This document shows, piece after piece, positions 51,600 to 64,000 of a stretch of DNA of 64,000 nt. Each line of letters starts with the position of its first letter. Position 1 is the first letter of the stretch. This DNA is from an uncultured SAR202 cluster bacterium. GTDB taxonomy: Bacteria; Chloroflexota; Dehalococcoidia; Lucifugimonadales; Lucifugimonadaceae. Under the pieces are notes generated by a model. It was not told where the DNA came from, ran no database searches, and saw only the letters and a program-made list of their open reading frames with translations. Location: assembly GCA_902620405.1 (NCBI GenBank), contig CACNIC010000003.1, positions 43,471 through 107,470 of the forward strand, read 5' to 3'. Both the position numbers and the translations under genes were made by a program.

Positions 51600-52520
51600 A
51601 TGAAAAAAGAAAAAATACTTATTACAGGTGGATCCGGTTTTGTTGGTACTAATTTAATTGACAAATTGCCAAAGGATATTTATGAAATTTTTTCCATTGA
51701 TATTGAAAAGCCAAAAATTAATTTTGATGTTGTTAAATATGAAAAAATTGATATTAGGTCTAAGCATATTGGAAGTCTAATTAAAGATATTGACCCAAAG
51801 ATAATTTTGCATTTAGCAGCACAATCGAGTGTATCTGTGTCTTCAAAAAATCCTGTTTTGGATAACGATGTAAATCTTAGTGGCTCACTAAATCTTTTTT
51901 TAAGTTCAACTAAATCTAATGTTGAACAATTTATATCATTCTCAACTGGTGGTGCTATTTACGGGGAAGAATTAGGAAAAAATTTTAAGGAAAGTGATGA
52001 TACAAAGCCTTTAAGTCCTTATGGAATTTCAAAATTAAACTTTGAAAATTATTTAAACTATTTCTCTGCAATTAAAAAATTTAAATGTAAAACAATAATA
52101 ATAAGGCCAAGCAATATATATGGACCTTGGCAAAACCCTCATGGCGAAGCCGGAGTGGTTTCAATTTTTGCAGAGAAAATGCTTAAAAATGAAAATGTTT
52201 CCATTTTTGGAAATGGTGATGAATATAGAGACTATATTTATGTAGACGACGTTATAGATTTTGTACTTAAAATTATAAATTCTAAAGAAATTGGAACATT
52301 TAATATTTCAAGTGGAGAAATTACTAAAACAATTGAAATATTTGATTATATTTCTAATATCATTGGGTATAAAAAGCCACCAATCTTTCTTGAGAAAAGG
52401 GAAGGGGATATATTTGGCATTGAAATAGATAATTCAAAATCTAGAAGTATTGGCTGGTCACCAAATTATAATTTGAAGGCTGGACTAGAAAGCACAGTAA
52501 GTTTTTTAAAGGATTCATGA
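51600..52520 (+). CDS. NAD-dependent epimerase/dehydratase (UDP-sugar epimerase-like)
   Basis: ILITGGSGFVGTNLID, HLAAQSSVSVSSKNP, YGISKLNFENYL, IIIRPSNIYGPWQNP. Confidence 0.94.
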   Translation: MKKEKILITGGSGFVGTNLIDKLPKDIYEIFSIDIEKPKINFDVVKYEKIDIRSKHIGSLIKDIDPKIILHLAAQSSVSVSSKNPVLDNDVNLSGSLNLFLSSTKSNVEQFISFSTGGAIYGEELGKNFKESDDTKPLSPYGISKLNFENYLNYFSAIKKFKCKTIIIRPSNIYGPWQNPHGEAGVVSIFAEKMLKNENVSIFGNGDEYRDYIYVDDVIDFVLKIINSKEIGTFNISSGEITKTIEIFDYISNIIGYKKPPIFLEKREGDIFGIEIDNSKSRSIGWSPNYNLKAGLESTVSFLKDS

Positions 52521-55321
52521 GTCAATTAAGAATAAATATAGATAAATATTTTCCAAGTATTATATTTTTTGGATTAAGCCTTATATTGTTTATGCCTTTA
52601 GTTGTTTCGCCTGAAACTGTTTTCCCTTATGTTGTTGGAAAGTCTATGTGGCTAAAAGGGATTATATATTTCCTAAGCGGCATCTATTTAATTTTGTTAA
52701 CTTCTAATAAATCTTATTTGCCAGATAAGAATTCATTAATTCTAATTTTTTCAATATTTGTCCTTATTCAATCTCTAGCAGCATTAGCAGGATCTAGCCC
52801 AGTTAATAGTTTTTGGAGTAATTGGGAAAGAATGGAAGGGGTTACAGATTATTTTCATTGGTTATTATTGATTATTGTTTCAAGTTCAGTTCTAAGAAAA
52901 GAAAAATCATGGATTAAATTATTAAAAATAAATGTTTTTGCTGGGTTTGTAGTTTCTTTATTGGGTTTATTAGAATTTTTTGATTTAGTTATTCCAATAT
53001 TATTTGGTTTAGATATATTCCCAAGTGTTGTTAATCCAGAACGATCTTACACATTGGGAGAGAGAGTTGAATCTACCATTGGAAACCCAGCATACCTAGC
53101 TTCATATCTTTCTATTATTTCTTTTATGTCAATTGGATTAATTATTAGAGAATTTCAAATAAGCTATATTGATTCAATAAAAAAGACATATTTGAATTTT
53201 GGCACAACTTCAAAGTTATTTGTATGGATATCAACATCAGGTTTAGTAGTTTCTATATGGACTATTTTTAATTCAGGTTCAAGAGGCTCACTAATAGGTA
53301 TATTTACAGGACTAATATTTGCAATTTCAATACTAGTTTATAGAAGGGAGGATTTAAGAAAATATTTATATGGCCTTTTGACTGTATTAGGGTCCCTTAT
53401 AGTAGTTTTTATTTTATTAACAAATTTTATTGAATCACAGAGGTACGAGATTAAAAACACTGTTTTAAAAAGTTATATTCCTGAAGAAGTTATTGCAAGT
53501 GAAGAGTTGCCATTTTCTTTTGAAGGAATCTTAGATGTTGGAACCAATGCCTCCAAAGAAATAAATAATATTTTGAGTCAGTTAAATTTTTTGAGAGTAT
53601 TTCAAGATGCTGAAAGAAGCTCAGGTTCTAGTTTGGACATGAAGAGTTTAAGTAAATTAATTGAAGAAAATAACTATTACCCTGATGAAAAAGAGATTTA
53701 CTGTTCAAATGAGATGATGTTATATTTTTGGGCTACTAATAGGTATTCATTTAGAGAATGTACCTCAGGAATGAAAGTCATTTCAATTTTTGGGCCAGGA
53801 ATTTCATATCCTTTTAAATCAGGTTTTAACATAAATGATCGAGAATATGCATGGGATATAGCTATAAAAGGTTTCTTATCTAAACCATTATTTGGTGTTG
53901 GCCCTGAAAATTTTCCTATTCTTCACTATAAATATCTTGACCTTAGTATGAATGACAATAAGCCACATTTAGATAGGGCACATAACCAAATTTTGCACGT
54001 TTTATCAACTTCAGGAATTTTTGGTGGTATTTCTCTAATTGCATTATGGATAACTATATTATTTTTATTGATTAAAAAAATCCATTCAAGCAAATTTTAT
54101 ATTTTCTGGATTATGTTAGCGTCTGCATTTTTATCATATGCAATTTCCGTTATGTTTATTTTTCCTGTTTCTTCAACTTATTTACAATTTATATTAATAA
54201 TATCTCTGCTATCTAAATCTTCTGAAGTTAAAGATGTTTCAAATATAGTAGAAAATAACGAAGAGCGTTTCACAAAAGATTCAATATCAGTTGTAACTTC
54301 AATTATTACTTTAGCAGTTGTCTTTATAATGGTTAGAAGCTTTATATATATTCCTTTCGAATCAGCAAAAGTTACACCTCCTCTTGGAAATCCAACCTCA
54401 GTTATAGAAATTCAAGAAAACATAAATAAATTTCCAAAATTAGCAAATTACGGAAGACAAGAATTATTTTATATTTTAATTAGAGATTATGACCAAATGC
54501 TTTCTGATGCTAATAGTCAAGGGAAATTTGCTGAGAGTTATAATTCCTTAAAAATAATTATTGATCAAGAATATAATGCGGCAGTAAATATTGAGCCAGA
54601 TAACTTTAATATTCACTTTGCTGTAGCAAGTCTTTATTTAAACTTATCAAAATATGAAGCATCAAATATTGATAAAGTTTCTTCGATTGTAAATGAACTG
54701 GAGAGACTGTCTCCAAATTCTGTTCAAACACTTGAAATAAAAATTAGGTTGTCGTTATTAAAAAATGATGATATTGAGGCTGAAAAATTAATAATTAAAT
54801 GGCGCGAATTCATGCCATACCAAGTTAAAGGTTTTTGGGATGAAAATTTGGCAATCACTAAAGGTGAATTAATACCTGATGTTGAATTGAATTGTAAAAA
54901 TGACCAATACCCTACAGATAAACCCCAGTTTGATGATTCCAATTTACTATATACAAATGAACTTGAAGGTGGTGTAGTTGTTGGTATTAAAAAAGAAGCT
55001 GATGAAGATGCAAAGTCAGTTGTTCCTGGCACAATTGTTAAAATGGATTATGTTGGTTGGTTACCTACAGGATGCTTATTTGACAGCTCTTTCTTGCCTG
55101 GAATGAATCCTTTAAGTTTTTTGGTAGGAAATAACCAAGCGATACCTGGAATTGAAGAGTCAATAATAACTCTTAAGGTAGGCAATATTGCAAGAATAGT
55201 TATACCACCTGAAAAAGCTTATGGAACAATTGGAATAAGTGGATTGATACCTCCAAATTCACCACTATATTTTGAAGTTGAGATTCTGGATGTAGAGACA
55301 ACTGGAGAAAAAATTGATTAA
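52517..55321 (+). CDS. O-antigen ligase/polymerase (Wzy_C-like) membrane protein fused to TPR-like region and C-terminal FKBP-type PPIase
   Basis: Multi-TM N-terminus with ERVESTIGNPAYLASYL, FNSGSRGSLIGIFTG, FGVGPENFPILHYKYL...LDRAHNQILHVLSTSGIFG. C-terminal FKBP (VVPGTIVKMDYVGWLPTGCLFDSSF...IPPEKAYGTIGISGLIPPNSPLYFEVEILDV). Confidence 0.9.
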   Translation: MSQLRINIDKYFPSIIFFGLSLILFMPLVVSPETVFPYVVGKSMWLKGIIYFLSGIYLILLTSNKSYLPDKNSLILIFSIFVLIQSLAALAGSSPVNSFWSNWERMEGVTDYFHWLLLIIVSSSVLRKEKSWIKLLKINVFAGFVVSLLGLLEFFDLVIPILFGLDIFPSVVNPERSYTLGERVESTIGNPAYLASYLSIISFMSIGLIIREFQISYIDSIKKTYLNFGTTSKLFVWISTSGLVVSIWTIFNSGSRGSLIGIFTGLIFAISILVYRREDLRKYLYGLLTVLGSLIVVFILLTNFIESQRYEIKNTVLKSYIPEEVIASEELPFSFEGILDVGTNASKEINNILSQLNFLRVFQDAERSSGSSLDMKSLSKLIEENNYYPDEKEIYCSNEMMLYFWATNRYSFRECTSGMKVISIFGPGISYPFKSGFNINDREYAWDIAIKGFLSKPLFGVGPENFPILHYKYLDLSMNDNKPHLDRAHNQILHVLSTSGIFGGISLIALWITILFLLIKKIHSSKFYIFWIMLASAFLSYAISVMFIFPVSSTYLQFILIISLLSKSSEVKDVSNIVENNEERFTKDSISVVTSIITLAVVFIMVRSFIYIPFESAKVTPPLGNPTSVIEIQENINKFPKLANYGRQELFYILIRDYDQMLSDANSQGKFAESYNSLKIIIDQEYNAAVNIEPDNFNIHFAVASLYLNLSKYEASNIDKVSSIVNELERLSPNSVQTLEIKIRLSLLKNDDIEAEKLIIKWREFMPYQVKGFWDENLAITKGELIPDVELNCKNDQYPTDKPQFDDSNLLYTNELEGGVVVGIKKEADEDAKSVVPGTIVKMDYVGWLPTGCLFDSSFLPGMNPLSFLVGNNQAIPGIEESIITLKVGNIARIVIPPEKAYGTIGISGLIPPNSPLYFEVEILDVETTGEKID

Positions 55322-55932
55322 TTTTCAGGTGAATCCCATCTTGCAAAAATACTATTAAAAACCGAAAGTATAATAATTTTTAAATCAAAAAATAAACTCA
55401 TTTTTTCTATATATTCTATATCGAATTTAATTTTTTCACCTGGCTCCAAGTCGTATGAGCCACTTATTTGAGCTAATCCTGATAAACCTGGTGTCACTTT
55501 AAGCCTTTCATCAAATTCAGGAATTCTTTTAATAAATTCATTATGTAGTTCAGGTCTTTCCGCTCTGGGTCCAACGAAACTCATTTCTCCTCTAATAATA
55601 TTTAATAACTGAGGTATTTCATCTAATGCGGTTTTTCTTAAAATATGACCAATCTTTGTAATTCTAGGATCATTTTTTGTTGACCATACGGCTCCAGAAA
55701 CTTTTTCAGCATCTGGTATCATTGTCCTAAATTTATATACTTTAAATATATTTTTATTTTTACCTATCCTATTTTGAGAATAAAAAATTGGTCCCCTATC
55801 TTCAAGCCAAATTAGTAAAGGTATAATAAATATAACTACAATCCAAAGTGGCCATAATAATGGAAATAATAAGCCTCCAAAAACTAAAGATAAATCAAGT
55901 AATCTTTTAAGCTTATAAGTCTTAATATTCAT
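55318..55932 (-). CDS. Bacterial sugar transferase (polyprenyl-phosphate glycosyl-1-phosphate transferase)
   Basis: KRLLDLSLVFGGLL, GPIFYSQNRIGKNKNIFKVYKFRTM, LRKTALDEIPQLLNIIRGEMSFVGPRAERPEL, TPGLSGLAQISGSYDL. Confidence 0.96.
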   Translation of the reverse strand: MNIKTYKLKRLLDLSLVFGGLLFPLLWPLWIVVIFIIPLLIWLEDRGPIFYSQNRIGKNKNIFKVYKFRTMIPDAEKVSGAVWSTKNDPRITKIGHILRKTALDEIPQLLNIIRGEMSFVGPRAERPELHNEFIKRIPEFDERLKVTPGLSGLAQISGSYDLEPGEKIKFDIEYIEKMSLFFDLKIIILSVFNSIFARWDSPEN

Positions 55933-56996
55933 TGTTTATTCCATCCTCCTGATAACCATCTGAACAAACCATATAAAAACCCCATGCCCCAAGATATATG
56001 CATTGATAAAACTATGAATGGTATTAAAAAGATAGAGGTTATCGAAGAAGATTTTGAACAAATTAATACTATTAGTAGCAGCCATAAGATTGATATGAAC
56101 CCAAAGAAAGAATTTAAAAAAATTAAAAAATTACCTTGAATCATAATATTGGAAATTACAATACTTAAAATAAATAAAACAAATAAAACTGGAGCTAATT
56201 GTCTTAATTTTAAGGATTCGGGGTGAACAGAAAGAGTCTTTGTTTTCCATAAACCATACCTGAAAAATTGCTTTATTAGCCCAAATAAAGAACTTCTTAC
56301 AAAGTAATCTACGATCAAATCAGTGATTAATATTACTTTTTTGCCACTTTTTCTCAACCTTATATTCAGTTCATAATCTTCGTTAATTTGAAACTCCTCA
56401 TTGAACCCACTATGTTCTAATAGATCCAAAGTTCTCCAACAACCAAGATAGACTGTGTCTGTTTCAAGGTATTTATCTGAATCTAATGGGTCAGATTTTA
56501 TTTTTCTATAATTCACACCACCCATTGCATACCCTGAATTCATCACATCAGCAATAACCTTTGTAAAATAACTGGTACCAACAGCTCTTTGAATAGATCC
56601 TGCATTTCCACCACTACTATCAATTATGGCTTGCCAACATTCAAAGATGTAATCTTTTGGATATATTGAATGGGCATCGGCTCGAATAATTATTGAGTTA
56701 TCTTTTTTATATTTACTATTCTCAATTCCAATGTTCATCGCATATGATTGATATAAATTAGGATTTTTAAATATTTTTAAATTTAAATCTTCAAATTTTT
56801 CATTTATTATCTCAATTGTTTTATCTGTGCTCATTCCATCAACAATGATGAATTGAACATTAAATTTATCTGAATCAATACTTCTGCAATTCAAAAGGGA
56901 TTTTATACAATTTTCAATAAATTTTTCTTCATTTCTTGTTGGAATAATTACTGAAATATCAACTATAGAATTCTCCTTAATCATTTCTAATACCAA
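55929..56996 (-). CDS. Family 2 glycosyltransferase with C-terminal TM region (ExoA-like)
   Basis: ISVIIPTRNEEKFIENCIKSLL, VDGMSTDKTIEI, IIRADAHSIYPKDY, INEDYELNIRLRKSGKKV. Confidence 0.92.
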   Translation of the reverse strand: MVLEMIKENSIVDISVIIPTRNEEKFIENCIKSLLNCRSIDSDKFNVQFIIVDGMSTDKTIEIINEKFEDLNLKIFKNPNLYQSYAMNIGIENSKYKKDNSIIIRADAHSIYPKDYIFECWQAIIDSSGGNAGSIQRAVGTSYFTKVIADVMNSGYAMGGVNYRKIKSDPLDSDKYLETDTVYLGCWRTLDLLEHSGFNEEFQINEDYELNIRLRKSGKKVILITDLIVDYFVRSSLFGLIKQFFRYGLWKTKTLSVHPESLKLRQLAPVLFVLFILSIVISNIMIQGNFLIFLNSFFGFISILWLLLIVLICSKSSSITSIFLIPFIVLSMHISWGMGFLYGLFRWLSGGWNKQ

Positions 56997-57904
56997 AGCC
57001 TTCCATTATTTTTTTTCAAATACTTTAAAGCTTTTAATTTAAATGGATTCCTGTTTTTGGTGTTCAATTTACTAAAGCCTTCTGATAAAGCTAAAAAGAA
57101 TTTTAGCAATTTAAAATTTATTACTGACTTAATAAAATAAAATGAACACCATATTGATAAATGAACAATTAAATATATTAATGGTAAGTGTTTATAAGAA
57201 ACCCATATTCTATTTCTGATACTGTAATATGCTTCATCTTTTAATTTACTTCTTTTATCAACTACTGATTTTTTGGGCTCGTGAATAATTTCAATTTCAG
57301 GATAATAAATGATTTTTTTATTTTCCTTAATTATTTCTGAACTTATATCAAGTTCTTCAAGGCCATAAAAAAGATCATTGTCATATCCACCGACTTTAAC
57401 AAATGTTTCTCTAAGCAACACATGGCCAGCTCCAATATAGTAAGAAACGCCTGATTCAATATCCTGAATATTTTTAGTTAAAAATCTTTTTAATTTACTA
57501 AATGGGATCTGCAGGCCATCTGAATCCTCTCTTAAAATAATTTTAAAGGCCATTCCAGCTATTTCTTCACTAGAAGAGAATTTAATTAAAATCTTCTCTA
57601 AAGAATCTTTATTTACAAAGTATGCATCATCATCGAGAAATACCATGACCGACCCTTCAGAAGCCTCAACTAATTTATTTCTTGCACCTGCAACCCCAGA
57701 AGGTTTATCAGACCTTATCCACTTTATTGACTGACCCTTGAACTTATCTTCAATCTGTTCTCTAATATTAATTTCGGAGGCATCATCCAAGACAACTATG
57801 TTAGCTTTAATAGTTTGATCTAAAGAACTTTGAATTGCTCTTTGGATTTCTTCGACCCTATCTTTTGTTGCAATCAATACAGTTATGTCTTTTTCAGTAA
57901 ACAT
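56987..57904 (-). CDS. Family 2 glycosyltransferase
   Basis: ITVLIATKDRVEEIQRAIQSSLDQ, VLDDASE, GVAGARNKLVEASEGSVMVFLDDDAYF. Confidence 0.92.
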   Translation of the reverse strand: MFTEKDITVLIATKDRVEEIQRAIQSSLDQTIKANIVVLDDASEINIREQIEDKFKGQSIKWIRSDKPSGVAGARNKLVEASEGSVMVFLDDDAYFVNKDSLEKILIKFSSSEEIAGMAFKIILREDSDGLQIPFSKLKRFLTKNIQDIESGVSYYIGAGHVLLRETFVKVGGYDNDLFYGLEELDISSEIIKENKKIIYYPEIEIIHEPKKSVVDKRSKLKDEAYYSIRNRIWVSYKHLPLIYLIVHLSIWCSFYFIKSVINFKLLKFFLALSEGFSKLNTKNRNPFKLKALKYLKKNNGRLWY

Positions 57905-57905
57905 T

Positions 57906-59018
57906 TTATATTTCAGATAGTAATTTTAAATATTTTTTTGATGAAGAATCTAAAGAAAATCTATCAATATTTTTAAATCCTTTATCAACGTGCCTTTTCT
58001 TTAATTCATCATTATTTAAATAATTTTTTATTGCTTTTACCAAATCATCTATATTGTCTTTTTTGGCAATTTGACCCGCCTCTCCATTGAGCAATATTTC
58101 TCCCAGTCCTCCATCCTTGCAAGACGATATTATTGGTGTTCTTAATGCTTGAGCCTCAACTGCAACTCTTGGCAAACCTTCCCACAATGATGGAATTACA
58201 ATCATCTTTGCCTTTTTTATATAATTTAATGGATTGTTTATTTCACCTTTAAAAATTACTTTAGAAGATAAATTCAAATCTTTAACAACTCTTCTTAACA
58301 TATTTTTTTCTTCTCCGTCTCCAACTATTATCAAATTTAATTTATCGTTTTTTAACTTTGAAAAAGCATTTATGAGCAATTTAAAATTTTTTTGTTTAGT
58401 TAATCTTCCTAACCCTAAAATATAATTATTTGACTCCAAATCAATATCATCAGATGCATTGAAATCGTTTTGATTTTCAAAATGTGGATTGTAAATATGA
58501 GTTATATTGCTTTCTAATCCAGTCATTTTTTTTAGCATTCCCATTAAACCCAAAGATTCGGCAACAACCCTATTTGCGCTACTAAAAACTTTTCTCCAAA
58601 TGAATCTTCTAAAATAATTATTTCTAGGATAGCCCTGTATGCTAACAATAAATTTTGTATTATTATTTCTGGATAACTTTAGTGATATCCATGCTATAAA
58701 AGGCATCATTGATACAAACAAAATTTCAGGTTTAGTTTTTTTTAAGTACTTAGACAATGTAATAATTGTTCTTAAAGAAATAATTAAAGAGGTAAACCTA
58801 AATTTCAGATAGCCCCTTGTAGGAAATTTTTTGAATGCCGTTGAAAGATATACTAAGTTCATATTTTGAGCAAACTCCATATCTTCCCACTCTTTATGGA
58901 CACTTAATAGGTCAACACTAAAATTATTTTCGGAAAATTTTTTTGATAGTCCAAAAGTTGCTTCTTTAACTCCTACAGGGTTAAGAAAAGGTGAAAAAAT
59001 AGCTATTTTTTTACTCAA
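57906..59018 (-). CDS. Family 4 glycosyltransferase
   Basis: LGLGRLTKQKNFKLLINAFSKL, LIIVGDGEEKNMLRRVVKDL, VIPSLWEGLPRVAVEAQALRTPII. Confidence 0.93.
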   Translation of the reverse strand: MSKKIAIFSPFLNPVGVKEATFGLSKKFSENNFSVDLLSVHKEWEDMEFAQNMNLVYLSTAFKKFPTRGYLKFRFTSLIISLRTIITLSKYLKKTKPEILFVSMMPFIAWISLKLSRNNNTKFIVSIQGYPRNNYFRRFIWRKVFSSANRVVAESLGLMGMLKKMTGLESNITHIYNPHFENQNDFNASDDIDLESNNYILGLGRLTKQKNFKLLINAFSKLKNDKLNLIIVGDGEEKNMLRRVVKDLNLSSKVIFKGEINNPLNYIKKAKMIVIPSLWEGLPRVAVEAQALRTPIISSCKDGGLGEILLNGEAGQIAKKDNIDDLVKAIKNYLNNDELKKRHVDKGFKNIDRFSLDSSSKKYLKLLSEI

Positions 59019-60168
59019 TGTAAATCCTTTTGACCATTTTTTTTGACCTTTCTATCCAAGAATATTTAATAGCTAGCTTAGCTGAATTTTTAGAAATTCT
59101 CTTATTCAGTTCTTTATCATTAATCAAGGTATTAATTTTTTCAACCATACTTTCAGGGTTATCAGGCTCAAAAAGAAGGCAATTTATATTATTTTCTAAA
59201 ACTTCCGTATTTGATGGTATGTTTGATGCAATTATTGGCCTACCTATAGACATATACTCAAAAAGCTTCATTGCAGAAGTATAATTTTTAGATTTATTAT
59301 TTTTTGCTGAAGAAGGCAAGAGAAGTATATCTGATTTATTCAATAAATCTGGAACATTAGAATAATTTACTTGACCAATAAAATTAATATTTTTGATTTC
59401 TTTTTTATTTACAATTTTCTCGTAGTAGTCAACATCTTCTTTTAAACCGCCAATTATTTGAAAATCAACATAATTAATGTATTTTGCTGAATTTATAATT
59501 AAATCAATTCCTTTTGATTTTGATAAAGATCCACAATAAGTTAATAATGGAGTGCTATTTTTACTAGTTTTATTATTTTTAAACTTTTTTAGGTCAACAC
59601 CATCATGCAATGTCTCAATTCCTTTTAAATTTTTTATTTTTCCTAATTTATTAAATAGATCTTCAGATAGTTTATTGGTAACTGCAAAACAAACAGTTTT
59701 TCCTGAAATCATTAACCCTATTTTAAATATTAATCTTGATAAAAAAGGTGGAATATCATGAAATTCCACAACACATCTTTTTGAAAAGATTGCACAAAAT
59801 AGATAACTAAATGGAGTATTGTCTCTAAATATATAAAAATCTCCATTTAATTTTGAACCTAACCTTGCAGATTTTATACCCCATAATAAATTAACAATGA
59901 AAGAAAAAATTCTATAAAAAAACTTCGGCATTAAAGATCTATATTTATAAGGATCTAAAAAGTCGACCAGATTGTGATCAAAAACTTTTTTAACATTATA
60001 AAAATTAAAAACACTAGTTTTATGGGAAATTTCATTTTGGATTCTTTTTGGACTTATTAAAACAACCTCATTATTTAAACCTGAAAGGGCTTCAATCATT
60101 TTAATTATTTGAACTCCATGAGCCTTTTCAGTCGGTAATCTTGCGTTTGTGATGTAAACTATCTTCAA
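59011..60168 (-). CDS. Family 4 glycosyltransferase (start trimmed to TTG at 60168, MKIVYITNARLPTEKAHG)
   Basis: TNARLPTEKAHGVQIIKMIEAL, YCGSLSKSKGIDLIINSAKYI, LPSSAKNNKSKNYTSAMKLFEYMSIGRPIIASNIPS. Confidence 0.92.
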   Translation of the reverse strand: MKIVYITNARLPTEKAHGVQIIKMIEALSGLNNEVVLISPKRIQNEISHKTSVFNFYNVKKVFDHNLVDFLDPYKYRSLMPKFFYRIFSFIVNLLWGIKSARLGSKLNGDFYIFRDNTPFSYLFCAIFSKRCVVEFHDIPPFLSRLIFKIGLMISGKTVCFAVTNKLSEDLFNKLGKIKNLKGIETLHDGVDLKKFKNNKTSKNSTPLLTYCGSLSKSKGIDLIINSAKYINYVDFQIIGGLKEDVDYYEKIVNKKEIKNINFIGQVNYSNVPDLLNKSDILLLPSSAKNNKSKNYTSAMKLFEYMSIGRPIIASNIPSNTEVLENNINCLLFEPDNPESMVEKINTLINDKELNKRISKNSAKLAIKYSWIERSKKMVKRIYIE

Positions 60169-60217
60169 AATATTGTTATAAGTATATAAAATTGTATTCT
60201 TATTAATTGTAAATAAT

Positions 60218-61267
60218 ATGGTCAGAGAAATCACTTTCAACAATTCAATAATAAATGATGCTTCAAGTTGTTATGTAATTGCCGAGATTGGAAATAACCA
60301 TCAAGGTGATGTAAATAATGCAAAAAAATTAATTCAGGCAGCTAAATCTAGTGGTGCATCTGCTGTCAAATTCCAGAGGAGAGATAATAAAGAGCTATTT
60401 ACGAGCGAGATGTTCGATTCTCCTTATGCGGGGCCACAAAGTTTTGCCCCAACTTATGGTGAGCATAGGGATAAACTAGAATTATCAGATAATGATTTTG
60501 AAGAAATTTATAAATATTCAAAAAAAATTGATATAGATTTTTTTGTTACCCCTTTTGACTTAAAGAGTGCTGACTTTTTAAATGAACTTGGATTAGAAAG
60601 TTATAAAATTGCATCTGGAGACCTAACAAATTTTCCTCTAATAGAGAAAGTAGCAAATTTTCAAAAACCAATGATAATTAGCACTGGGGCTAGTGATTTC
60701 TCAGAAGTTGAAAAAACATTTAACTTTGCAAAAAATATTAACAATAGAATTATACTTCTTCAATGTACATCAATTTATCCTGCAAAACCTGTAACAATTA
60801 ATTTAAACGTTATTAAAACATTTAGAGATAAGTTTGCTGATACTGTAATAGGGTATTCTGGCCACGATTCAGGCATATCAATTCCAATTGCAGCATATTC
60901 ACTTGGCGCAAGAGTGATTGAAAAACACTTCACTTTAGATAGGACTCAAAAAGGCACAGACCATCAATTTTCATTGACACCTGAATTGTTAGAAGAACTT
61001 GTTACAGAACTTGAAAATGTTAAATTGTCTTTGGGTGATGGTAATAAAAAATTACTTTCTGAAGAAAAGTTGGCAAGATTTAAGATGGGTAAAAAAATTA
61101 TATCTTCCAAGGATCTTAGTAAAGGCACTATATTAACAATTGAAGATTTGTTATTTAAATCCCCTGGTGACGGAATACCTCCAAGTGAAATAGATAAAGT
61201 TTTAGGAAAGAAAATAACAAAGGACTATCTATACGAAGAAAATATTAAATTTGAAGATTTAGAATAA
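60218..61267 (+). CDS. N-acetylneuraminate/nonulosonate synthase (NeuB/SpsE-like) with SAF domain
   Basis: IAEIGNNHQGDVNNAKKLIQAAKSSGASAVKFQ, YKIASGDLTNFPLIEKVA, GYSGHDSGISIPIAAYSLGARVIEKHFTLDR. Confidence 0.95.
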   Translation: MVREITFNNSIINDASSCYVIAEIGNNHQGDVNNAKKLIQAAKSSGASAVKFQRRDNKELFTSEMFDSPYAGPQSFAPTYGEHRDKLELSDNDFEEIYKYSKKIDIDFFVTPFDLKSADFLNELGLESYKIASGDLTNFPLIEKVANFQKPMIISTGASDFSEVEKTFNFAKNINNRIILLQCTSIYPAKPVTINLNVIKTFRDKFADTVIGYSGHDSGISIPIAAYSLGARVIEKHFTLDRTQKGTDHQFSLTPELLEELVTELENVKLSLGDGNKKLLSEEKLARFKMGKKIISSKDLSKGTILTIEDLLFKSPGDGIPPSEIDKVLGKKITKDYLYEENIKFEDLE

Positions 61268-61269
61268 GC

Positions 61270-61797
61270 ATGAAATCAGTAAATGAATATTTATCAAATA
61301 TTTCTCCTTCAATTAAAGAAAAATTTAAAAAAATAAAATTTATTGTTTTTGATTTTGATGGAGTGTTTACAGATAATCAAGTTTACACAGATCAAAATGG
61401 TATAGAATCTGTTGTTTCATCAAAATTTGATGGTTTTGGGCTACAAAAATTAAGAGATTTGGGAATAGATTTGCATATTTTATCAACTGAAAAAAATAGT
61501 GTAGTAAAAAAAAGAGCTCAAAAACTTGAAATTAATTACATTCAAGGTTTATCAAGCAAAGAAAAGTTAATTGAATTTATAAAATTAGCTAATGAAAAAA
61601 AATTTAATTTTAGTGATATAGCATATATGGGTAATGACATAAATGATATTGATTGCTTAAAAAAATCTGGCTTAGCAATTGTTGTAAATGACTCTCATCC
61701 TGAAATTATAAAATATGGTGATTATAAAACTGACACAAATGGTGGGCATGGTGCTGTTAGAGAGGTATGCGATATAATCGAAGCATTAAATAATTAA
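61270..61797 (+). CDS. KdsC-like HAD phosphatase
   Basis: FIVFDFDGVFTDNQVYTDQNG, LSTEKNSVVKKRAQKL, YMGNDINDIDCLKKSGLAIVVNDSHPEI. Confidence 0.93.
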   Translation: MKSVNEYLSNISPSIKEKFKKIKFIVFDFDGVFTDNQVYTDQNGIESVVSSKFDGFGLQKLRDLGIDLHILSTEKNSVVKKRAQKLEINYIQGLSSKEKLIEFIKLANEKKFNFSDIAYMGNDINDIDCLKKSGLAIVVNDSHPEIIKYGDYKTDTNGGHGAVREVCDIIEALNN

Positions 61798-61805
61798 ATA
61801 GTGCC

Positions 61806-62591
61806 TTGAAAAATAACTTTAATATAGAAAACAATGTAATAATTCTAACCGGAGGAAGTGGAAACCTTGGTAGCATATATGCTGAATATCTAATTTCAAA
61901 TGGTGCTAAAGTTTGTAACTTTGATTTAACTTCACCAAAGGATATAAATAAATTTGATGAAAAGCATTACTTATTTTTAAAAACTGATGTAACTGATAAA
62001 GAAAATATTTCAGATTCTCTAAAATTAGTTTTAGAAAAATTTGGATGCCCACAAGGACTGATTAATAATGCTGCCCTTGATTCGCCTCCAGGTGATAGTG
62101 ATGTAATAAATGGTCCGTTTGAAGATTACCCAGAAGAAGCTTGGGATAAAGTAATTGATGTAAATTTAAAAAGCATTTTTCTCACCTGCCAAATAATTGG
62201 TAAAGAAATGGCTGATAATTCAGGCGGTTCAATTATAAATATATCTTCGCACTATGGACTTATTTCTCCAGATCAAAGAATCTACAATTATAGAAAAAAT
62301 TTTTATAAGCCAATTTCTTATTCAGCATCAAAATCAGGAATATTTAATATTACTAGGTATCTAAGCACTTATTGGGGGCAACAAAATGTAAGAGTTAACT
62401 CCTTAACATTAGGTGGTGTTTTTGATAATCAAGACGAAGAATTTGTAAACAATTATTCTGAAAAAGTTCCTCTTGGCAGAATGGCAGAAAAACATGAATA
62501 TAATGGTGTAATTCATTTTTTATTAAGTGATGCTTCTTCATATATTACTGGAAGTAATATAGTTTCAGATGGAGGATGGACTGCATGGTAA
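61806..62591 (+). CDS. SDR-family oxidoreductase
   Basis: ILTGGSGNLGSIYAEYLISNGAKVC, LINNAAL, YSASKSGIFNITRYL, SDGGWTAW; TTG start. Confidence 0.92.
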   Translation: MKNNFNIENNVIILTGGSGNLGSIYAEYLISNGAKVCNFDLTSPKDINKFDEKHYLFLKTDVTDKENISDSLKLVLEKFGCPQGLINNAALDSPPGDSDVINGPFEDYPEEAWDKVIDVNLKSIFLTCQIIGKEMADNSGGSIINISSHYGLISPDQRIYNYRKNFYKPISYSASKSGIFNITRYLSTYWGQQNVRVNSLTLGGVFDNQDEEFVNNYSEKVPLGRMAEKHEYNGVIHFLLSDASSYITGSNIVSDGGWTAW

Positions 62592-62597
62592 TTACAC

Positions 62598-63347
62598 ATG
62601 AAAAATAATGTTGCTCTTATTCCAGCAAGATCTGGCTCAAAAAGAGTAGTTAATAAAAATATTACCCCTTTGAATGGTCACCCACTCATAGCTTATTCTA
62701 TCGTTTCAGCAATTGAATCAAATATATTTGATCAAGTTGTAGTTTCAACTGATTCTGAAGAAATTAAAGATATTTCAGAATACTATGGCGCCAATGTCCC
62801 ATTTATACGGCCTTCTGAGTATTCTCAGGATAAATCTCCTGACATACTTTGGGTTAAGCATGCTTTAGATTTCTTTAAAGAAATAAAGAATTATGAATTT
62901 TTTAGCATTATTCGCCCTACTAGCCCTTTTAGAAAACCAGAAACAATTAAAAGGGCTTTTGAATTATTTTTAAATAAAAAATGTGATTCTTTAAGGGCTA
63001 TTGAAAAATGTTTGCAACATCCATATAAAATGTGGGTTTTGAAAAATGATTTTATGGTCCCATTTGTCAATTCAAGTGAAAAAGGCCCTGTTGATCAACC
63101 TCTTCATAGTTCGCAATACCCTTCTCTCCCTGAAGTTTATGTGCAAAATGCAAGTCTAGAAATAGCTCACGTAAAGACTGTGTATAACTTTAAAAATATA
63201 TCCGGTGAAAAAATCATGCCTTTTTTTACTGAAAATGACGAAGGTTTTGATGTGAATGTGAAAGAAGATTGGGAACTTGCAAAAATATTAATTAATAACG
63301 GAGAAGCATCTTTACCAAAGATAAATAAAAAATCTTATTTAGAATGA
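62598..63347 (+). CDS. Acylneuraminate cytidylyltransferase (CMP-nonulosonate synthetase)
   Basis: ALIPARSGSKRVVNKNITPLNGHPLIAYSI, VVSTDSEEI, IIRPTSPFRKPETIKRAFELF. Confidence 0.94.
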   Translation: MKNNVALIPARSGSKRVVNKNITPLNGHPLIAYSIVSAIESNIFDQVVVSTDSEEIKDISEYYGANVPFIRPSEYSQDKSPDILWVKHALDFFKEIKNYEFFSIIRPTSPFRKPETIKRAFELFLNKKCDSLRAIEKCLQHPYKMWVLKNDFMVPFVNSSEKGPVDQPLHSSQYPSLPEVYVQNASLEIAHVKTVYNFKNISGEKIMPFFTENDEGFDVNVKEDWELAKILINNGEASLPKINKKSYLE

Positions 63348-64000
63348 AATTATCATATATTAAAAATGAATATTTTGAAGATCTATTGTCACTTGAAACT
63401 GATCCTTTAATTAAAAATAAATTAATTTCAGACATGTGTAGAATCAATATACTGTACATGATATGTTGTGCTGGATCGGGGCATATAGGGTCTTCATTTA
63501 GTTCAATTGATTTAATGAATTGGATTATTGGAGAATTAGATAAAAAATATGAAAATCTATATTTCTTTTCTTCAAAAGGGCATGATGCTCCGGCTCTTTA
63601 TAATTCATTGATTGCTCACGGCAAATTAGATTTTTCTTATTTGAAAAGATTAAGAAAAATAGATGGGCTACCTGGTCACCCAGACATTAATACTCCAAAT
63701 ATATTTGCAAATACTGGTTCATTAGGAATGGGTATTTCTAAATCAAAAGGAATCATAAAAGCTAACAAATTAAAAGGAATTGATTCAAAGGTAATTGTTC
63801 TTACTGGTGATGGCGAATTACAGGAAGGTCAAATTTGGGAATCACTTAATAGAGTTCCTCAAGAGAACCTAAAAGAGTTAATGATTATTGTTGATAATAA
63901 TAAATTTCAGTCTGATCGTTCTGTTAAGTTCACAAGTAATTTAGGAAATATTGAAAAGAAATTTAAATCTTTCGGAATAGAAACAATATCTTGTGATGGT
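63344..64000 (+). CDS. Transketolase N-terminal-subunit-like protein, truncated by the window end
   Basis: Manual translation from ATG 63344: AGSGHIGSSFSSIDLMNWI, FSSKGHDAPALYNSLIAHG, GLPGHPD, TGSLGMGISKSKG, VLTGDGELQEGQIWESL; open to the window end. Confidence 0.92.
   Translation, partial: MKLSYIKNEYFEDLLSLETDPLIKNKLISDMCRINILYMICCAGSGHIGSSFSSIDLMNWIIGELDKKYENLYFFSSKGHDAPALYNSLIAHGKLDFSYLKRLRKIDGLPGHPDINTPNIFANTGSLGMGISKSKGIIKANKLKGIDSKVIVLTGDGELQEGQIWESLNRVPQENLKELMIIVDNNKFQSDRSVKFTSNLGNIEKKFKSFGIETISCDG

Follow-up and report, generated by a model that had tools for sequence, protein, structure and literature searches.

A Wzy_C glycan transferase fused to a TPR tail and an FKBP domain in one genus of marine Chloroflexota

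The 64,000-nucleotide stretch of DNA analysed here (the window) closes contig C3 of a MAG of 967 kb (70% complete, GC about 29%). Genome size, GC, and marine relatives suggest that the window's organism is a streamlined relative of SAR202. One gene of the window encodes, in a single chain, a Wzy_C membrane enzyme followed by an additional transmembrane (TM) helix, a tail of degenerate TPRs, and an FKBP domain. The combination of domains is new and the enzyme family a known one; on present evidence this is not a new kind of system, so that the wholly undescribed system of the original prediction is replaced by a genus-restricted fusion. The gene itself has been found as predicted, at 52517-55321 (+), as one uninterrupted frame of 934 codons without stop or frameshift, and the predicted order of ligase, TPR, and FKBP has been recovered as well. 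Pfam places Wzy_C at residues 426-507 (E 3e-15, 56.6 bits versus a cut-off of 31.7) and FKBP_C at residues 834-924 (E 1e-20, 73.9 bits, profile positions 4-94 of 94), the latter domain also matching solved FKBP structures at E 1e-24 to 1e-12. In the window protein by itself the TPR signal stays below threshold (TPR_11, 17 bits versus a 27-bit cut-off); it has been recovered by comparing a profile of 31 homologues with designed TPR structures (E about 1e-17 to 1e-9); TPR_19 matches the same region, about residues 640-770 (54434-54826, +), in four relatives. The FKBP domain had been expected at about 55025-55318 and is near-complete as stated, while its position has been corrected: the core spans 55016-55291 (+) and, together with a Cys-containing N-terminal extension (C.N..YP, 54893-55015, +), makes a module starting near 54893. 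AlphaFold2 models of the full-length protein (pLDDT 41) and of the FKBP part alone (pLDDT 45, with FKBPs ranked first by Foldseek at an rmsd of about 9) were too weak for use, and a promoter scan gave signals no more frequent than chance. The architecture had been put forward as previously unknown, and our literature search has likewise found no description of it and no paper joining FKBP and O-antigen ligase as a fusion.

The transferase half belongs to the WaaL/PglL (Wzy_C) superfamily. Wzy_C exceeds the Pfam cut-off in 31/31 homologues, and their profile matches the WaaL structure 7TPG (E 4e-19) and the oligosaccharyltransferase structure 9RMK (E 2e-6). Three residues that matter for the function of E. 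coli WaaL, R215, R288, and H338, are conserved in PglL as well (PMC3643930); alignments, including that to 7TPG, identify their equivalents as R256 (codon 53282-53284), R442 (53840-53842), and H489 (53981-53983), with R256 and H489 invariant and R442 kept in at least 90% of the 31 homologues. R256 lies in a GSRG motif that aligns to the GTRG motif of 7TPG. The sole PglL-specific profile in Pfam, PglL_A (PF15864), matches none of the 31 homologues, and the PglL_B (Q..N) region, inspected by eye, reads STIGNPAYLA, without the QxN pair. Averaged hydropathy has indicated nine helices (52517-53422, +, the segment that includes R256), a long loop (53423-54013, +, residues 303-499) carrying R442, D486, H489, Cys396, and Cys415, three helices after it, and one further helix at residues 587-607 (54275-54337, +), which separates the ligase core from the TPR tail and would place that tail outside. 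According to this TM count, a hydropathy estimate, and with a cytoplasmic N-terminus, the GSRG motif, the catalytic loop, and the TPR-FKBP tail would all lie outside the cell. The protein has only four cysteines, forming two possible pairs (396/415 and 793/853), which are kept in the fused orthologues and are compatible with disulfides outside the cell. Together with the origin of the FKBP domain described below, the catalytic residues and topology suggest that active site and FKBP are both on the outer face, in agreement with the extracytoplasmic location originally proposed for the FKBP, which the conserved cysteine pairs also support. Measured over residues 321-425, the outer loop differs between species and is the fastest-evolving part (dN/dS about 0.22-0.41), which would fit contact with a glycan or acceptor that itself varies.

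The glycan-gene context that had been anticipated is evident on both sides of the gene. An NAD-dependent sugar epimerase/dehydratase gene (51600-52520, +) overlaps its start by 4 bp and adjoins it in every orthologue locus. The convergent neighbour encodes an initiating sugar-phosphate transferase (PF02397; 55318-55932, -) and is followed by four glycosyltransferase genes, two GT2-like and two GT4-like (55929-60243, -), and by genes for a NeuB-like synthase, a HAD phosphatase, an SDR, and a cytidylyltransferase of sialic-acid-type sugar synthesis (60218-63347, +). Wherever the contig reaches, the orthologue loci keep the order of arginine genes and epimerase, fusion gene, PF02397 transferase and glycosyltransferases. 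By their predicted functions the neighbouring genes fit the synthesis of a sialic-acid-type glycan begun by the PF02397 transferase; no acceptor gene adjoins the fusion gene. The window closes with a transketolase-like gene (63344-64000) truncated by the contig end, of which the genome G076 holds an intact copy of 632 aa, there also after the sialic-acid-type genes.

The gene content of the genus narrows the choice of acceptor. LpxC, MurJ, and the Wzx flippase (PF01943, PF13440) are each absent from all ten genomes of the genus, while control genomes match, and a penicillin-binding transpeptidase has been found on one contig of one of the ten only. The chance that ten incomplete genomes would all have missed a gene common to all is about 1e-6 if the gaps are independent. 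By this evidence the genus appears to lack both peptidoglycan and lipopolysaccharide, in line with SAR202 Chloroflexota, which have been described as having no LPS or peptidoglycan but an S-layer, surface glycoproteins, and sialic-acid genes (PMC11994032; PMC5395668); probable O-glycosylation has also been reported for the archaellum of another member of the phylum (PMC12488501). Because LpxC, MurJ, Wzx, and a credible penicillin-binding protein are missing, lipid A or peptidoglycan is unlikely as acceptor, a protein acceptor becomes likelier than for an ordinary O-antigen ligase, and, with no Wzx-type flippase in the ten genomes, no classical Wzx/Wzy pathway can be assigned. A surface protein would thus be the best remaining acceptor candidate. 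The ten genomes hold lipid-linked glycan genes, yet no Wzx, PF13440, or MurJ flippase.

The fused FKBP domain has kept most of its catalytic pocket. FKBP12 Tyr26, Phe36, Asp37, Ile56, Tyr82, and Phe99 correspond to Y845, F855, D856, I876, Y902, and F919, I911 being kept as well, and these pocket residues are retained in the orthologues except for a change of I876 to Val in G082 and G079. The Val55 position has become Ala in 7/7 fused sequences, and the Trp59 position, the pocket floor of FK506 binders, is Ile or Phe in 7/7 (I879 in the window protein) whereas it is Trp in the FKBP lipoproteins of the genus, which makes normal FK506 binding doubtful. The replacement of Trp59 is no argument against activity, since the pocket of trigger factor, an efficient folding catalyst, is lined by Phe198, adjacent to Ile195 (PMC6166725), and one may postulate from the retained residues that the fused domain is an active prolyl isomerase. 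In diverged pairs, where synonymous sites are near saturation and the ratios accordingly rough, dN/dS of the FKBP part is 0.08-0.16, similar to or below that of the TM core and below that of the outer loop (0.22-0.32); the closest pair, G082/G079, gives 0.39 for the FKBP part, from few changes. Judged by these ratios, the FKBP part is under purifying selection.

We tentatively favour a WaaL/PglL-like transferase that glycosylates S-layer or other surface proteins and holds its FKBP domain beside the acceptor site. The adjacent cluster would make a lipid-linked glycan of sialic-acid type, which the Wzy_C transferase would pass, on the outer side of the membrane, to a surface protein, for instance an S-layer or envelope protein; the TPR tail would bind this protein acceptor or a partner; and the FKBP domain at the end of the tail would sit beside the active site, where it may isomerise, or simply hold, proline-containing acceptor segments, which would thus be glycosylated and folded together. 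A concrete reason for a prolyl isomerase at such a site is provided by PglL, whose acceptor sites need local turns for which prolines have been suggested as the source (PMC3643930). Counting against this reading are the missing PglL_A match, the lack of an adjoining acceptor gene and of a flippase in the searches made, the two sister species that have the gene without FKBP, the replaced pocket Trp, and the FKBP dN/dS of 0.39 in G082/G079. Coupling of glycan transfer to the folding of surface or S-layer proteins, as originally proposed, is consistent with the data. The more specific idea of a foldase-coupled oligosaccharyltransferase, in which one chain controls acceptor proline geometry while it transfers the glycan, in bacteria whose envelope seems to depend on surface glycoproteins in place of peptidoglycan or LPS, we regard as possible and hold with less assurance.

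The same evidence can be read for an enzyme that polymerises glycans, or that ligates them to something other than protein, such as a membrane lipid; the FKBP domain would then be a structural or docking element that serves dimerisation or binds a proline loop of a partner, and not a folding catalyst. Wzy_C covers both polymerases and ligases, the PglL_A motif is missing, the one or two further Wzy_C proteins in the more complete genomes of the genus could share out roles, and the pocket is altered at the Val55 and Trp59 positions. Against this stand the lack of a Wzx-type flippase in ten genomes, the lack of a lipid A or peptidoglycan acceptor route, and the conserved equivalents of the catalytic residues Y26, F36, D37, Y82, and F99, and we consider this explanation rather unlikely.

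The history of the FKBP domain bears on both its location and its role. The FKBP lipoproteins of the genus carry a lipobox, the C.N..YP extension, and a GC.FDSS motif, the last two of which are common to the fused domain, and in the FKBP tree all fused domains group together (100/100) within the FKBPs of the genus (97/96). The tree and motifs thus indicate a single origin of the fused FKBP from secreted FKBP lipoproteins of the genus itself, and by this descent the fusion would have taken up a module that was already extracytoplasmic. Such an origin also agrees with a general envelope foldase that is now anchored in the membrane through the transferase instead of through a lipid; the two activities would then share a chain and serve separate substrates. 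The lipoprotein counts favour this, as the unfused genome G078 has two FKBP lipoproteins, whereas no fused genome has more than one in addition to the fused domain, as if a second copy had been relocated. The fused domain does not branch directly beside either G078 lipoprotein, however, and its strong divergence on one long stem (1.12 changes per column), with specific pocket changes, suggests a new role, which leaves a simple change of anchor as the less probable of these two alternatives.

Searches of the order (250 genomes), a sample of the class (393), and a sample of the phylum (400), about 940 Chloroflexota genomes after overlap, have returned matches spanning both domains only in this genus and on one misbinned contig. 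The search of other genomes for the architecture that the original prediction had proposed therefore leaves the fusion, among these Chloroflexota genomes, confined to a single clade within one genus. In G559, G524, G393, G307, and G374, FKBP matches fall in long open frames that were rejected as fusions, no Wzy-like partner being visible by eye, and several such frames outside the genus read by eye as GC-rich spurious frames. The genomes G068, G073, and G074 of the genus g2 were rejected on the same ground; in their frames of about 650-750 aa (L046:2907-5156, L047:2553-4622, L048:3069-5012) a lipoprotein-type FKBP precedes a long region that contains Cys, and no Wzy-like part is present. No relatives of the fusion protein have been found on viral contigs, and among the plasmid matches listed only ordinary FKBPs occur, none covering the fusion protein. 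G077 and G078, of the same genus, have an orthologue at the same place that is 27-28% identical and stops before the FKBP domain, and a tree of ArgJ, ArgD, and ArgG makes them the sister group of the fused clade (support 100), so that a single gain of FKBP within the genus is the simplest history. As these two species do without the FKBP domain, the core reaction does not require it. In G075, from another genus of the same family, argJ adjoins the gene for a Wzy_C protein of 1851 aa (L050:3930-9485) with a very long C-terminal extension that lacks a confident Pfam domain, another large tail on such an enzyme.

Full-length fused orthologues have been found at 70% identity (MCMED-G30) and at about 51-52% (G079, G082, G084), and six genomes of the genus show the same gene order around the fusion. 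In one of these six, G076, the fused gene is divided between the ends of two contigs (L038:17460-19784 and L039:1-1134); the overlap of the two parts, at about residues 177-330, is similar and non-identical, which may reflect mixed strains or two copies. A further full-length copy of 74% identity lies on contig CAJWSY010000040.1 (G029:C40; L045:1-6551) in a bin of another family. As this bin also holds a second, native and distant argJ (49% versus 86%), the contig is most likely misbinned, and horizontal spread of the fusion to that family has been rejected. Misassembly, which the original prediction had asked to be checked, is excluded by full-length orthologues with the same junction and gene order in independent assemblies and by the purifying selection. 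That the fusion is a product of assembly or binning, or arose by chance and is now decaying, might be suspected from the MAG data and the misbinned G029 copy, and is exceedingly improbable given the agreement of independent assemblies on junction and gene order and the purifying selection, which, as estimated from dN/dS, excludes a chance origin.

Glycosylation and folding of secreted proteins influence each other, and we know of no glycan transferase with a built-in prolyl isomerase. If the coupling is real, the fusion would make it possible to ask by genetic means whether O-glycosylation is limited by the geometry of prolines at the acceptor site, and would open a way to understanding how a glycoprotein envelope is built in bacteria that lack peptidoglycan and LPS; the sister species with and without the FKBP domain provide a natural comparison.

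Among known systems, the WaaL O-antigen ligase of Cupriavidus (PDB 7TPG) is alike in the Wzy_C fold region, in the R/R/H catalytic residues, and in the long outer loop before the last TM helices. Unlike WaaL, the fusion has an extra TM helix, a TPR tail, and FKBP, and its genus has no LpxC and hence no lipid A-core acceptor. The protein O-oligosaccharyltransferases PglL and PglS (e.g., PDB 9RMK) belong to the same superfamily and have equivalent catalytic residues, whereas the fusion carries an FKBP tail and has no PglL_A (PF15864) match. Wzy_C-TPR proteins of Chloroflexota share the architecture up to about residue 785 and are without FKBP. Trigger factor and SlyD also contain FKBP-type PPIase domains, but are cytoplasmic chaperones with unrelated partner domains. 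The envelope FKBP lipoproteins of the genus, and FkpA/Mip-type FKBPs, share the C.N..YP extension, the GC.FDSS motif, and the FKBP core, from which the fused domain differs in the Ile or Phe at the Trp59 position and in its attachment to a glycan transferase in place of a lipid anchor.
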